Assembly: GCA_021462625.1 (NCBI GenBank)
Contig: JAJNAU010000010.1
Location: 1 to 48,205 of the forward strand
DNA: 48,205 bases
Direction of reading: 5' to 3'
Source of the DNA: Shewanella sp.
Lineage (GTDB): Bacteria; Pseudomonadota; Gammaproteobacteria; Enterobacterales; Shewanellaceae
In this document: positions 27,130-34,805 of the stretch, piece by piece
Layout of the letters: every line of letters begins with the position of its first letter
Numbering within the stretch: position 1 is the first letter of the stretch
The notes under the pieces: model-generated
What the model was told of the DNA's origin: nothing
What the model saw: only the letters and a program-made list of their open reading frames with translations
The model's database searches: none
Translations under genes and position numbers: made by a program

Positions 27130-27753
27130 ATGAATTACAATCAAGCAATACTGGGCATGGCCCGTGATGGACTGGCTGCGTTGGCCGACTCGGCGCTGGC
27201 GCGAAAACAACCGACTGCGGCGCAGGAGAGTCATTTTATTTGCAGCTGGATGGTTGATGCCCTAAAAAAGCACGCTTATCCCAAGTGCCTGGCGCGGGAG
27301 CTGACTTTCTGGGTGCGGGATGGCCGCAGCCTGGGAGCCGGTGCTCAGTTAAAGCCTTTGCTGGAGCAGATCGTGACCCAGTACGCAGCCCTTTAGCATC
27401 AGGGCACTTCACTTGGCAGCGCGCTCAATTTGTGGCTGGATGAGTTGCGCTCAGATGGTGTACTGGTGATTACTGATACCCCTGTGGATGGCAAGCTGAA
27501 GCTGGACAATGATGGTCTGCCCAGCGTTATTATTTCGGCACCTGAGTACCGGCAGCATATTCAGGATGGCGAGCTTATCAAACCTGTTACCCTTTACATC
27601 CGGGCTGATGAAGCCATGCTGGCGACCACGGCGCTGGCTCAGGGGTTGTTGCTCAGTACCGGCGACAGGAAATCATCTCTGATTAAACATCACAAGGCGT
27701 ACCGGATTTATCCGGCAAACAACCAACCCGGCTTGGCTTTGTTGATTTCCTGA
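27130..27753 (+). pseudogene. DUF2913-like protein interrupted by one in-frame TAG
   Basis: ORFs 27130-27396 and 27430-27753 share a frame; TAG at 27394-27396; sequence continues HQGTSLGSALNLWLDELRSDG. Confidence 0.75.
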
Positions 27754-29514: not shown

Positions 29515-32013
29515 TCAAGGCCGCTGGTTTATCGTCACACACTGGCGGGTCCACTGAGCCTGCTGCTGTAGCTTATTCATCAACTGCGGCTGCAGTGTTG
29601 CCTCGGCGAGGCGCTGCCATTTGTCGGCCCACTGACTGTCGCAGCCTGGATGCAACATCAGTGACGCCAGATCGTAGCGAAACACCATTGGTTGCTGTTC
29701 ATCCTGCAGCCATTCGAGGCGCAGAACCTGACTGGCCTCACTCAGTAACTGTTGCTCAGGAGGATAGAGGCTGGACATGATTTGACGGCGCTGTGCATCA
29801 GTCATTCGTGGCAGTTTGGCAAGCAACGCTTGCTTTTCCAGCGCACTGGGGCTGACCGCCCGTAATATGAGCTGCTGGGTGTCTGACAGTGGCTGCTGTT
29901 TGTGTTGCTCTTTGAGCAGACGCGGCGCGGCCGGATGATCAAAACGCGCCAGTTGCCGCAGGGTGGCGAAGCGCTGTGCCTGAGTCAGAGGCGGCAGACG
30001 AACGGCGGGATACTCCAGCAGGCTTGCCAGATGGTCAAGTGTCTCGCGGCTTTGTGCCAGAGCTAAATAGGTGTCAAGCCAGGTTTGCTGCAATGTGCTG
30101 TCGCTGCCGGTTTCCATAGCCCGCTGCACGCTGAGATGCGCCATGGCATCAATCAGCCGGTCACTTTCTCTGTGCTGCCCGGCGGCGAGAAACTCTGCCA
30201 GTGCCAGCAGTTGTGTCTGCAGCAGCTGTGCAGTTGCAGACTCTGAGATGTTTGATGCATTGAGCATGACCAGCGCCAGATACTCACGGGCTGTCAGCTG
30301 GCCTTCCAGCACGGATTGCCACAGTGACTGCCATAACAGCAGTGATGTCAGCGGCTGATGTATCTGCCCTAATTGCAGACGCGAGCGGCTCAGACTGTGT
30401 TCATCCGGCAGTACCCTGATATAACTGAGGTTATCCTCATTGGGCCAGATGAAATCCGGGCAGACCAGATGAGTGGCCTGAGTGACCTGGGTATGGCCGC
30501 CGCTGAGCATGACCGGCAGGACTTTATCCAGGTATACTCCCTGACGATCGGTATGGTAGAGCCCGATACGCACTGACTGATGGCGAAGCTGCCCTTGTTG
30601 TTCAGGCTGTTGTTCAAGCGTCAGCTTTTTAATTACGCCGTTACGGCATTGTACTCTGGCCTGGAGCTGATTGATGCCGCGCCTGTTGATGAAATCTTCA
30701 AACCATGGCTGAAGGTCCCGCCCGCTTGTTCTGAGCGCGATATCCATAAATTCCACTACGCCAGAGGCCTGTCCTGCGTAGTGCTGCAAATAGGCCTGGA
30801 ATATTTTATCCAGCTGCGATTTGCCCAATTGCGCCTGTAATTGTTCAAGGGCTGCAACAGCCTTGGTATTGATGCTGGGAGCTTGAGACAAATTATGGCC
30901 TGGAGCGTCAATAGCGTGACCGCTCAAGGGCGGAGTGTCGTGCGCTGTGGCCAGATCCTTTGCCTGTGGCGCCTGAGAGGTGCGGGACAAGAACTGGCTG
31001 ATAGCATCCGCCAGCCAGTGACTGGTCCACCAATCTATGCTAACACTGCTGCCAAGCCACTGATGTGCCAGTTGATAACTGATTGTCTGAGCATCAGCCC
31101 GGGCGGGTTGGATAAATACTACCGCCGCAGCTTTGCTGTGCGATAGCGCCTGTTCGTTCTGCAGCAGTTGATCATACTTATCAAACGGAAAGTCGGTACC
31201 GAGCCGGCTTTCCAGTAAGTTAAGCTGCTGCCGGGTTCGGCTCAGCCAATTATCGGCATTAACCAGTCCCTGCTGTGATTGCCGGGCATAAAGCGCCAGA
31301 GGCAGACCTTTACCTGTGTTTTGCCAACGGACAAAGGGGCCAGCATGCAGTGACATATTATGGGGGCTCAGCGGTAGCTCGGTATTAAACGCGGTGCAAC
31401 GGCTGGAGTCATCCTGAGATGGTGCATTACATGCCATGGGACGACTGCCGGAGATAACCTCCCACCTGGATGGCGCCGTGACTTCCAGTTTAAAGCGGGC
31501 TGGCAGATCCGGCTGATCAAACAGGGGAAACACTCGGGATGCGCCGTTAGGCTCAAAGTGGGAATAGAGGTATTGCAGTCCATCCTGAGGGTCAATCAGG
31601 CTTATCAGTCCAAGACTGCCAGTTTGGTATTGTCCGTTGAATGTCAGTGTCACCCGGTTGCTGCCGGTACTCAGCAACGCCGGTGAAAAGGTCAGTTGCG
31701 AGCCATTGTAATTGGGATAGAGGTAGCGGTCATTGATGGTTACGGCACTAAGCTGCAGCCCTTTGGCGTCAAGCGACAGCGGCTGGCTGGCATCATTCAG
31801 GTTGAACCGGATCTCAGCCTTGCCCTGGAAGCCATATTCGCTCAGGGTCAGTTGGTACCTGTAGTCAAGCTCAGACAATCTTGCTGAGCGCGCCATGGCC
31901 GCAGCACGCCCGGCATCCGCTGTTAGCGCATCGGGCTTATTGGAGGAGGTTGACTGACAACCTGTTAATGACAGCAGGGCCAACAGACCGGGAAGCAATA
32001 ACAGCCGGAGCAT
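29515..32013 (-). CDS. M1 aminopeptidase-like lipoprotein with degenerate catalytic motifs
   Basis: Lipobox LLSLTGC; M1 fold landmarks retained (LAHQWLGSSVSIDWWTSHWL) but the HEXXH position reads YQLAH. Confidence 0.82.
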   Translation of the reverse strand: MLRLLLLPGLLALLSLTGCQSTSSNKPDALTADAGRAAAMARSARLSELDYRYQLTLSEYGFQGKAEIRFNLNDASQPLSLDAKGLQLSAVTINDRYLYPNYNGSQLTFSPALLSTGSNRVTLTFNGQYQTGSLGLISLIDPQDGLQYLYSHFEPNGASRVFPLFDQPDLPARFKLEVTAPSRWEVISGSRPMACNAPSQDDSSRCTAFNTELPLSPHNMSLHAGPFVRWQNTGKGLPLALYARQSQQGLVNADNWLSRTRQQLNLLESRLGTDFPFDKYDQLLQNEQALSHSKAAAVVFIQPARADAQTISYQLAHQWLGSSVSIDWWTSHWLADAISQFLSRTSQAPQAKDLATAHDTPPLSGHAIDAPGHNLSQAPSINTKAVAALEQLQAQLGKSQLDKIFQAYLQHYAGQASGVVEFMDIALRTSGRDLQPWFEDFINRRGINQLQARVQCRNGVIKKLTLEQQPEQQGQLRHQSVRIGLYHTDRQGVYLDKVLPVMLSGGHTQVTQATHLVCPDFIWPNEDNLSYIRVLPDEHSLSRSRLQLGQIHQPLTSLLLWQSLWQSVLEGQLTAREYLALVMLNASNISESATAQLLQTQLLALAEFLAAGQHRESDRLIDAMAHLSVQRAMETGSDSTLQQTWLDTYLALAQSRETLDHLASLLEYPAVRLPPLTQAQRFATLRQLARFDHPAAPRLLKEQHKQQPLSDTQQLILRAVSPSALEKQALLAKLPRMTDAQRRQIMSSLYPPEQQLLSEASQVLRLEWLQDEQQPMVFRYDLASLMLHPGCDSQWADKWQRLAEATLQPQLMNKLQQQAQWTRQCVTINQRP

Positions 32014-32098
32014 GATTCGTTATTATTCTTGTATAAGTGAGTCGTGTTTTTCCACAAAGAGTGGGGCAACTCAGTTGTTGCCCCTTATGGTTGCTCGA

Positions 32099-32692
32099 TT
32101 ACAGACCAAGGAAGGATTTTGAGAGAGTTTTACGGATCTCTTTTTCATCCGACCATTCAATCAGCCCGGTATCCAGATCCATCAGACGCATGGTCATCTT
32201 GTAGTAGACATCCTTGGTGCTGCCCTCCTGTTTGACTATGCTCGACAGGTTGCCATACAGCATGTACTGAGCACCAATTTGGCGACCAAACTTAATGGCG
32301 TTGGATGGGTCAACCATACCTGAGTTATTTTGGTAATCCAGTTGCTTACGTACTGCATCGACCTTGGTCATGTCGATGAAGCGGAACTTGCCTGAACGCA
32401 ATAACTGATTGCTGATGGAGTCGGTGACTGATTCAGTGTCGATATGCTCTGAGGTCTTGTTCTTAATGCGGTCGACAAAAATCACCGGACGCTCTTTGGC
32501 AGTCAGTGCCACTACTGGTGGGAATGCCAACATACTGTCGACCATTTTCTCAGTGATCGCCTGCAGATCCGAAGAGCCAAAGTTTTCATTCACGGTTTCC
32601 ACGGCGCTGGCATCGCCGTATTCCACCCGGGACTGACAGGCGGAGAGTCCGACTACCGCGGCCAGTATCAGTATCAATTTTGCGTGTTTCAT
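32099..32692 (-). CDS. LpoB-like penicillin-binding protein activator lipoprotein
   Basis: Lipobox GLSAC; FVDRIKNKTSEHIDTESVTDSI; QIGAQYMLYGNLSSIV. Confidence 0.8.
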   Translation of the reverse strand: MKHAKLILILAAVVGLSACQSRVEYGDASAVETVNENFGSSDLQAITEKMVDSMLAFPPVVALTAKERPVIFVDRIKNKTSEHIDTESVTDSISNQLLRSGKFRFIDMTKVDAVRKQLDYQNNSGMVDPSNAIKFGRQIGAQYMLYGNLSSIVKQEGSTKDVYYKMTMRLMDLDTGLIEWSDEKEIRKTLSKSFLGL

Positions 32693-32716: not shown

Positions 32717-34081
32717 TCAGATGATTATTGAATAAAATCGGATCAGATTACCAGTGTCGATTGCCCAAACCAGCGTAGTTTTTCCAGCCTCTATGGTTAC
32801 CTGATGAGCCGGGCTGCTGTCTAGCCTGATTGGATAACTACCGGCAGGTAGTGATTCACTGGCTATCTGTGCCTGTTGCGGTAAGGTCAACCAGCTGCGC
32901 CTGTCTGCCTGCTCGGATACCAGGTTAAACAGCTGCACCGCGACAGCACCGACATTATCCTGATTTTGGTTGTGTTTTCCGCCGGCTTGCTGGTTCATTT
33001 TGGCCTTGGCTGCAACCCGCGCCGCCTGTCGCAGCAATATTGCGGGCATTTGTTGACGCAGAGCGTTGATGGCCATGGCATCAAGATTGGCAATGGGAGC
33101 CGTTTGCCGTGGTTTTCCCGCGCCGGTGACCGTGGCCGGCAGTACCTGAGGGGGGCGTCCAACATAGGTGGGCAGAGTCACTCTCTGCCAGTAACCATCA
33201 ATGGTAAAAGGGACGGTGAAGCTCTGTTTTTCCGGCACCAGTCCTCGCTCCAACAGCAGGATCAGCTGGCCATTGGTTTTCGGGGTGGCGTTGGTATCGC
33301 CCCAGCGCTGTTTGAACTCCTGATACTGAGGCATTTGCAAGGTCTTGGCCAGACGCACCAGCGTCTGTTGCAGATAGGGATTGCCCGGTGACAACCGCAC
33401 CGCTTTGCGGTAGTCAATGAAGGCGTCATTGGGCTGGCCAAGAAGTTCATAGATAAGGCCGGTCACATAGTAGCTGTAGGCATTCAGAAAGGCGTTGTCC
33501 AGGTTGCCGGCTACCTGCCCCAGACGGCGCATTTCTGCGGCAACTTGACCGTTTTCTATGTCTTGTACTGCAGATTTTGACTCAAAGCGTTTTTGCTCCT
33601 GAGCCTGTAGTTCGTTGGTGCGGCGAACTTCCACCAATGCCGCCTCATAATCTTTGGTAAACAGGAAATTCAGCGCCTGGTACTGATGCAGCATAATGCG
33701 TTCAAATGCGGGCCCCTGGTAGGGAATGGCGTTGTCGTTCAGCAAAATGCCAGAGGTTTTGGCGCCAATGTCAGAGGCGCTGATAACAGCTTTGTTGTCC
33801 TGAGTCTGATAGTCGGCAATGGCTTGGCGATAATATTGTTCACTGACCCTGAAATCCCCGCTTATCTGCGCTACCCGCCCGGCTTCCTGAGCGTAGAGCA
33901 GAGCATCCTGCCCCTCGAGTCCGGCCTGCAGGGTGGGTAGCGTTGTTGCAGGCTTTTGGCTGTCAAGTGCCTGACGCACCGGCGCCATCTGACTGGGATA
34001 GCTGACAAATAAGCTGGAGCCAGCGCAGCCGCCCAGTAACGGCAAGCAAAGGCAGGCAAACAGGACGCGCAGCTTCAGCAT
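32717..34081 (-). CDS. COG3014-like lipoprotein with TPR-like region
   Basis: Lipobox LLGGC; NAFLNAYSYYVTGLIYELLGQPNDAFIDYRKAVRLSPGNPYLQ. Confidence 0.75.
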   Translation of the reverse strand: MLKLRVLFACLCLPLLGGCAGSSLFVSYPSQMAPVRQALDSQKPATTLPTLQAGLEGQDALLYAQEAGRVAQISGDFRVSEQYYRQAIADYQTQDNKAVISASDIGAKTSGILLNDNAIPYQGPAFERIMLHQYQALNFLFTKDYEAALVEVRRTNELQAQEQKRFESKSAVQDIENGQVAAEMRRLGQVAGNLDNAFLNAYSYYVTGLIYELLGQPNDAFIDYRKAVRLSPGNPYLQQTLVRLAKTLQMPQYQEFKQRWGDTNATPKTNGQLILLLERGLVPEKQSFTVPFTIDGYWQRVTLPTYVGRPPQVLPATVTGAGKPRQTAPIANLDAMAINALRQQMPAILLRQAARVAAKAKMNQQAGGKHNQNQDNVGAVAVQLFNLVSEQADRRSWLTLPQQAQIASESLPAGSYPIRLDSSPAHQVTIEAGKTTLVWAIDTGNLIRFYSIII

Positions 34082-34578
34082 AGCGTTGACTCCTGAGTCT
34101 GCTCGTTCAGCCTGATACGCTCAAGCAGGGTAAGCCCTTTGAGATGGTCCAGTTCATGCTGAAAAATCCGGGCTACAAAGCCATCAACCACCTGCTGATG
34201 ACGCTGTCCCTGTAGATCCTGATACTCTACTTCCAACCACTGATGGCGCGGAACTGACAGCCGGGTGCCGGGCAGTGACAGGCAGCCTTCCTCACCCATT
34301 ACCTGTTCTGCTGATGCGGCAATAATTCCCGGGTTGATCATGATCTGCGGCGCCATCAGGGGGGCATCGGGGTATCTGGCGTTGGGACGGGAAGCTATGA
34401 TAAACAGTGCCAGGGGACAGTAGATCTGGGGCGCTGCGATACCCACACCATCGCTGGCCATCATGGTGTCCATCATGTCTTTGGCAAGTTTACTCAACTG
34501 CCGGTCAAACACTGTGATCGGCATGGCTCTCTGGCGAAGCATGGTATCCTGATTAGTCGCAATGTGGTGAACCGTCAT
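34075..34578 (-). CDS. Peptide deformylase
   Basis: All three motifs: GVGIAAPQ, EGCLSLPG, HELDHLKG; ATG at 34578 preferred. Confidence 0.92.
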   Translation of the reverse strand: MTVHHIATNQDTMLRQRAMPITVFDRQLSKLAKDMMDTMMASDGVGIAAPQIYCPLALFIIASRPNARYPDAPLMAPQIMINPGIIAASAEQVMGEEGCLSLPGTRLSVPRHQWLEVEYQDLQGQRHQQVVDGFVARIFQHELDHLKGLTLLERIRLNEQTQESTLC

Positions 34579-34592
34579 GACGCTCCCTGAAC

Positions 34593-34805
34593 TCAATAGT
34601 GTGGTGGTGTCTCTTCTGACTGACTGGCGATATGACTGGGTTCAATCGCCCGCAGTTTGTCGATGATCAGTTGCATCTGATATTGCTGGCGGGCCACCAG
34701 GTCATTGAGTTTGATCAGTTCCTGATTCAGCTCTTCAATGGTGCCATCCTGAAAGGCAATACGCATTTCCAGCTCTTCCAGGTGCGCGTGCAATGTGTCG
34801 TTCAT
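34593..34805 (-). CDS. slyX: SlyX family protein
   Basis: [26 protein letters not shown] coiled coil, C-terminal PPHY. Confidence 0.93.

Follow-up and report, generated by a model that had tools for sequence, protein, structure and literature searches.

In a 2024 review of metallopeptidase pseudoenzymes, yeast Tma108 is the only M1 entry, and alpha-MPP and other inactive M16 subunits are metallopeptidase homologues that lack the zinc motif and are kept by selection (PMC11266112). An aminopeptidase-like fold is also predicted in TAF2, a subunit of the TFIID complex (PMC4309443). No paper on bacterial M1 pseudoenzymes was found in open-licence PubMed Central. The described system closest to the gene analyzed here is the active Shewanella lipoprotein aminopeptidase N, TIGR02412/PepN-like, encoded at the lpoB locus.

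Gene identity and predicted localization

The window, that is, the whole 48,205-nt stretch of Shewanella sp. DNA that was analyzed, contains an M1-like ORF with an ATG start that is open over 832 codons on the minus strand, and the plus strand of the same interval carries many stops (Table 1). The uninterrupted frame and the good lipobox had been recorded in a first-pass annotation made from the letters alone, which gave no strand; both were recovered here. The protein matched Pfam Peptidase_M1_N (PF17900, 4.8e-15), Peptidase_M1 (PF01433, 1.7e-10) and ERAP1_C (PF11838, 1.4e-9), all at or above cut-off, i.e., the N-terminal, catalytic and C-terminal domains of the M1 family. The NCBIfam model TIGR02412 PepN matched residues 36 to 829 (E 3e-113), with a score of 379.7 bits below the curated cut-off of 591.2 for the pepN_strep_liv equivalog, and the top match in the PDB was an aminopeptidase N (2e-51). 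Judged from these profiles, M1 homology covers the entire length of the protein.

The signal peptide ends, after a hydrophobic stretch, in a lipobox with the invariant Cys, read by eye as LTGC here and as LTAC in the orthologue of S. corallii, a sequence pattern of bacterial lipoproteins from which lipidation is predicted; export and folding of the protein are likewise predicted. Two Cys pairs in the C-terminal part, Cys456/Cys518 and Cys791/Cys825, are conserved in the alignment in active and dead copies alike ("dead" is used here for copies that have lost catalytic residues). An AlphaFold2 model, for which the only input was the window and S. corallii proteins, had a mean pLDDT of 45.5 and a pTM of 0.28, too low for use.

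Table 1. Features of the M1-like gene and its neighbors in the window
Feature	Position	Strand	Basis
M1-aminopeptidase-like lipoprotein, predicted catalytically dead, 832 aa	29515..32013	-	ORF; Pfam, NCBIfam and PDB homology
Predicted lipoprotein signal peptide MLRLLLLPGLLALLSLTGC, lipid-acceptor Cys19	31957..32013	-	Translation; near-identical in S. corallii
N-terminal domain (M1_N), residues 45-240; SHFEP with E154 kept	31294..31881	-	Pfam PF17900, residues 53-216; alignment
Former GAMEN region, LSHSKAAAV, residues 290-298	31120..31146	-	Alignment to 93 active orthologues
YQLAH replacing HEXXH, residues 313-317 (codons TAT CAA CTG GCA CAT)	31063..31077	-	Alignment
Asp336 replacing the third zinc ligand Glu, 18 residues past HEXXH	31006..31008	-	Alignment
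Asn382 replacing the catalytic Tyr	30868..30870	-	Alignment
C-terminal part, residues 448-832, beta domain and ERAP1_C-like helical domain; least relaxed in dead copies	29518..30672	-	Pfam, alignment, per-domain dN/dS
lpoB-M1 intergenic hairpin, located where many Shewanella have an lpoB terminator; weak T tract here	32063..32084	-	Sequence
lpoB, PBP1b activator lipoprotein, upstream neighbor of the M1 gene	32099..32692	-	Pfam LpoB 6.9e-58; synteny across Shewanella
TPR lipoprotein, upstream of lpoB	32717..34081	-	Pfam TPR_2
Peptide deformylase homologue, first gene in the conserved run	34075..34596	-	Pfam 2.5e-47; S. corallii order identical

Gene order at the lpoB locus

The run of genes for deformylase, TPR lipoprotein, LpoB and M1 protein is conserved, and its order was matched in S. 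corallii DSM 21332, the sole match in a related-locus search of genome contigs. In most other Shewanella the gene behind lpoB encodes an M1 protein 32 to 36% identical to the window protein, which makes the window gene their positional orthologue. A different arrangement was seen in six genomes (L019, L021, L086, L088, L128, and L132), in which an active M1 copy lies away from lpoB; the RpoBC tree, which includes L019 and L128, places this group as the sister of the window clade, and its gene order suggests relocation or replacement. In most Shewanella species inspected, lpoB is separated from the M1 gene by a terminator-like hairpin, so a shared operon with lpoB is not assured and cotranscription is not required; the idea of an lpoB-M1 operon is weakened by it.

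About 20 bases preceding the M1 start codon (TACAAGAATAATAACGAATC; 32014-32037, minus strand) do not differ between the window and S. corallii despite saturated synonymous sites and are probably a promoter or translation signal. Elsewhere in the window, a DUF2913 gene (27130-27753, plus strand) carries a single in-frame TAG at 27394-27396. The parts before and after it cover profile positions 1-86 and 102-206, both in one frame, and the interruption is a pseudogene mutation, a readthrough site or a sequencing error.

Loss of the catalytic residues

Residues were assigned by aligning the window protein with the 93 active orthologues. Y313, Q314 and H317 align with the H, E and H of HEXXH, i.e., the first His and the general-base Glu are gone and the second His is kept. 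The NES of active relatives reads ADA, the GAMEN exopeptidase motif aligns with LSHSK, and HEXXH, the third zinc Glu, GAMEN and the catalytic Tyr, by which active M1 enzymes are recognized, are all missing from the window protein. Both the window protein and that of S. corallii retain E154, at the position that in M1 enzymes binds the amino group of the substrate, and the QW, WW and WL surrounding the former HEXXH helix. The first-pass annotation had thus read the HEXXH replacement, the missing GAMEN and the retained scaffold residues correctly, and its missing NEG glutamate was right in the letter, but the aligned residue is Asp336, a conservative change from Glu.

The persistence of H317 and D336 raises the question of a rebuilt site, in which these residues, with others, would coordinate a metal and make the protein a hydrolase of another kind. 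S. corallii carries R at the H317 position, and no new polar set is fixed in the catalytic domain across the dead clades in the alignment, which leaves this reading scarcely credible.

Dead orthologues are widespread in Shewanella

The orthologue alignment comprised 126 sequences, 125 from Shewanella and one from a related family, with one genome per species. All zinc ligands and the general base (His, Glu, His, Glu) together with the EN of GAMEN were kept in 93 of them. The remaining 33 had lost the general base, a zinc ligand or several of these residues; the general base was gone in 31 and all five positions checked were gone in 23. Judged from these residues, roughly one in four Shewanella orthologues is dead, and the window protein is not a single oddity. 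The dead orthologues were essentially full-length (826 to 1023 aa) except for L067, a split gene. Only small active-site changes were found in L022 and L094; that of L094, one His-to-Pro substitution, could stem from an error in sequencing. The other 30 were full-length and deeply changed.

The S. corallii orthologue, 56% identical to the window protein, is intact and dead with different letters (QQLAR). A third member of the window clade (L065, genome G158) has a frame of 1053 aa, in which the dead catalytic domain contains long additional sequence. Conservation of YQLAH and a dN/dS below 1 had been proposed as a check on the pseudoenzyme assignment: the letters vary, but the absence of the catalytic set is common to these copies and dN/dS is below 1. 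The M1 gene behind lpoB is broken in G001 (L233) and G023 (L067) and absent from G018 (L234), and no match to the M1 gene was found in four genomes, G018, G058, G162 and G166; the gene is therefore dispensable in these lineages.

Purifying selection on dead copies

dN/dS was calculated by NG86, pairwise rather than with a branch model. Among pairs with unsaturated dS, values were about 0.10 to 0.22 for dead and 0.02 to 0.11 for active copies; the window gene against S. corallii gave 0.39/2.87 = 0.14, a rough value since dS is saturated. Dead copies are relaxed about 2- to 3-fold overall, yet they are clearly under purifying selection and far from neutral. In a neutral simulation at 0.13 substitutions per site, about 11 stops arose on average and none of 400 runs kept an open frame, which indicates that the frame is kept by selection.

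These values bear on whether the gene is a decaying pseudogene that is open by chance. The relaxed dN/dS, the broken and absent copies in other genomes, and the small window genome (3.37 Mb) with at least one broken gene would fit such decay, but the dN/dS of the window pair and of the other dead clades, together with the simulation, have already largely refuted it, and we consider it very improbable. The loss of catalytic residues with retention of the frame and of purifying selection agrees with the sequence definition of a pseudoenzyme, with inactivity predicted, and the candidate pseudoenzyme under selection proposed in the first-pass annotation is borne out by the dead lineages and by the intact dead orthologue in S. 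corallii. Intact-HEXXH orthologues combined with relaxed selection had been named there as grounds for rejection; such orthologues do exist, but the relaxation is only about 2- to 3-fold and leaves the gene far from neutrality, so that just half of this ground for rejection applies.

Domain-specific relaxation and probable retained role

Relaxation was uneven along the protein. Median dN/dS in dead and active copies was 0.149 and 0.061 in the N-terminal domain, 0.186 and 0.039 in the catalytic domain, and 0.117 and 0.066 in the C-terminal part; the catalytic domain changed from the most constrained in active copies to the least constrained in dead ones, yet its value stayed well below 1. Mean identity of catalytic segments was 29% among dead copies versus 73 to 82% among active ones, and that of C-terminal segments was 40 to 47% versus 54 to 60%.

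The old cleft might still bind peptides or protein N-termini without cutting them. Tma108 is described as binding nascent chains via its substrate pocket (PMC11266112), and the window and S. corallii proteins share the retained E154, QW, WW and WL. Across 29 dead copies, however, the amino-group-binding Glu was present in only 4 and the catalytic Tyr in none, GAMEN is gone, and conservation is lowest in the catalytic domain, so that peptide binding by the cleft is unlikely. Of the two roles first suggested for the protein, envelope scaffolding is therefore favored over peptide binding in the old active site, since the catalytic domain lost most constraint and the Glu is rare. The better-kept N- and C-terminal domains, the two Cys pairs and the lipoprotein signal point most simply to a periplasmic scaffold or binding protein. 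What the remaining constraint preserves would thus probably lie mainly outside the old active site and be a structural or binding function in the periplasm.

About 30 Shewanella genomes encode another active M1 enzyme (L225-L232), whose N-terminus (HELAHQWYGNLVTM) looks like that of an exported protein. The dead protein could serve another peptidase as its inactive subunit or its regulator, as alpha-MPP serves beta-MPP, and the second, probably exported M1 enzyme (HELAHQWYG) was present in 18 of 33 dead versus 12 of 92 active genomes (Fisher P = 6e-6). The association was gone once relatedness was counted (independent pairs, P about 1), and the window genome has just one other M1 match; a partner role is improbable. 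Replacement of the dead copy by the second exported enzyme was considered as well and rejected, the association being non-significant after relatedness was accounted for.

Number and history of losses

Activity is taken as ancestral because the related-family homologue (L164) and the characterized M1 aminopeptidases that these proteins resemble are active. On a species tree of RpoB and RpoC from 60 genomes, five active/dead changes were forced by well supported branches. The M1 gene tree calculated without the catalytic domain had three changes of state, because 30 dead copies fall in one clade. In trees of this kind, fast-evolving rows are drawn together. Dead copies were scattered on both the RpoBC and lpoB trees, and the gene tree conflicted with RpoBC for the window clade, the grouping of which with its species neighbors was rejected by the AU test (P = 0.003). 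When placed singly among active copies, the window, B and L072/L073 groups joined the L007/L008 active clade, and groups C and D joined the L091 clade. Long-branch attraction, old transfer or differential paralogue loss are possible causes of the conflict. Catalysis was thus lost repeatedly: three independent losses are common ground for both trees, and five or more are likely.

Proposed explanation and comparison with known systems

We favor, with moderate confidence, the explanation that the window protein is a true M1 pseudoenzyme, predicted to be lipid-anchored in the periplasm, which derives from an active Shewanella lipoprotein aminopeptidase and retains a non-catalytic role. The ancestral enzyme would already have had a second, non-catalytic job, carried by the N-terminal beta and C-terminal helical domains, namely to provide a scaffold or a surface for binding at the envelope. 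In lineages that could do without the peptidase activity, the active site would then have decayed while the other job continued. Such a double role of the ancestor is inferred from the recurrent losses with the gene retained, which suggest that the role is older than the losses. Gene order hints at a possible link to LpoB and peptidoglycan synthesis. More tentatively, this may be an envelope family that lost activity at least three and probably at least five times in one genus but was retained because of an older, unrecognized structural role of the outer domains, possibly in cell-wall assembly beside LpoB.

At a single locus, Shewanella species carry active, newly dead and long-dead orthologues, a natural series in which aminopeptidase roles beyond cutting can be tested. 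For about one in four of these genes, the automatically assigned name "aminopeptidase N" would be wrong.

The active lpoB-locus enzymes share with the window protein the position, all M1 domains, 32 to 36% identity and, in several of them, a lipoprotein-type signal. They differ in having GAMEN, HEMAHQWFG, the catalytic Tyr, and NES, which includes the zinc-ligand Glu; in the window protein each of these is lost or changed. TAF2, likened here by description and not by sequence comparison, is a eukaryotic nuclear protein, and alpha-MPP belongs to another family and forms a dimer with an active twin, of which the window protein gives no sign. Tma108 is likewise an M1 homologue for which a role other than catalysis has been proposed (PMC11266112), but it is eukaryotic and ribosome-associated and, unlike the window protein, keeps HEXXH and the zinc ligands and has lost one substrate-binding residue. 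Since the pocket decays in window-type proteins whereas Tma108 is thought to use its own, the parallel between the two is one of principle, not of mechanism.
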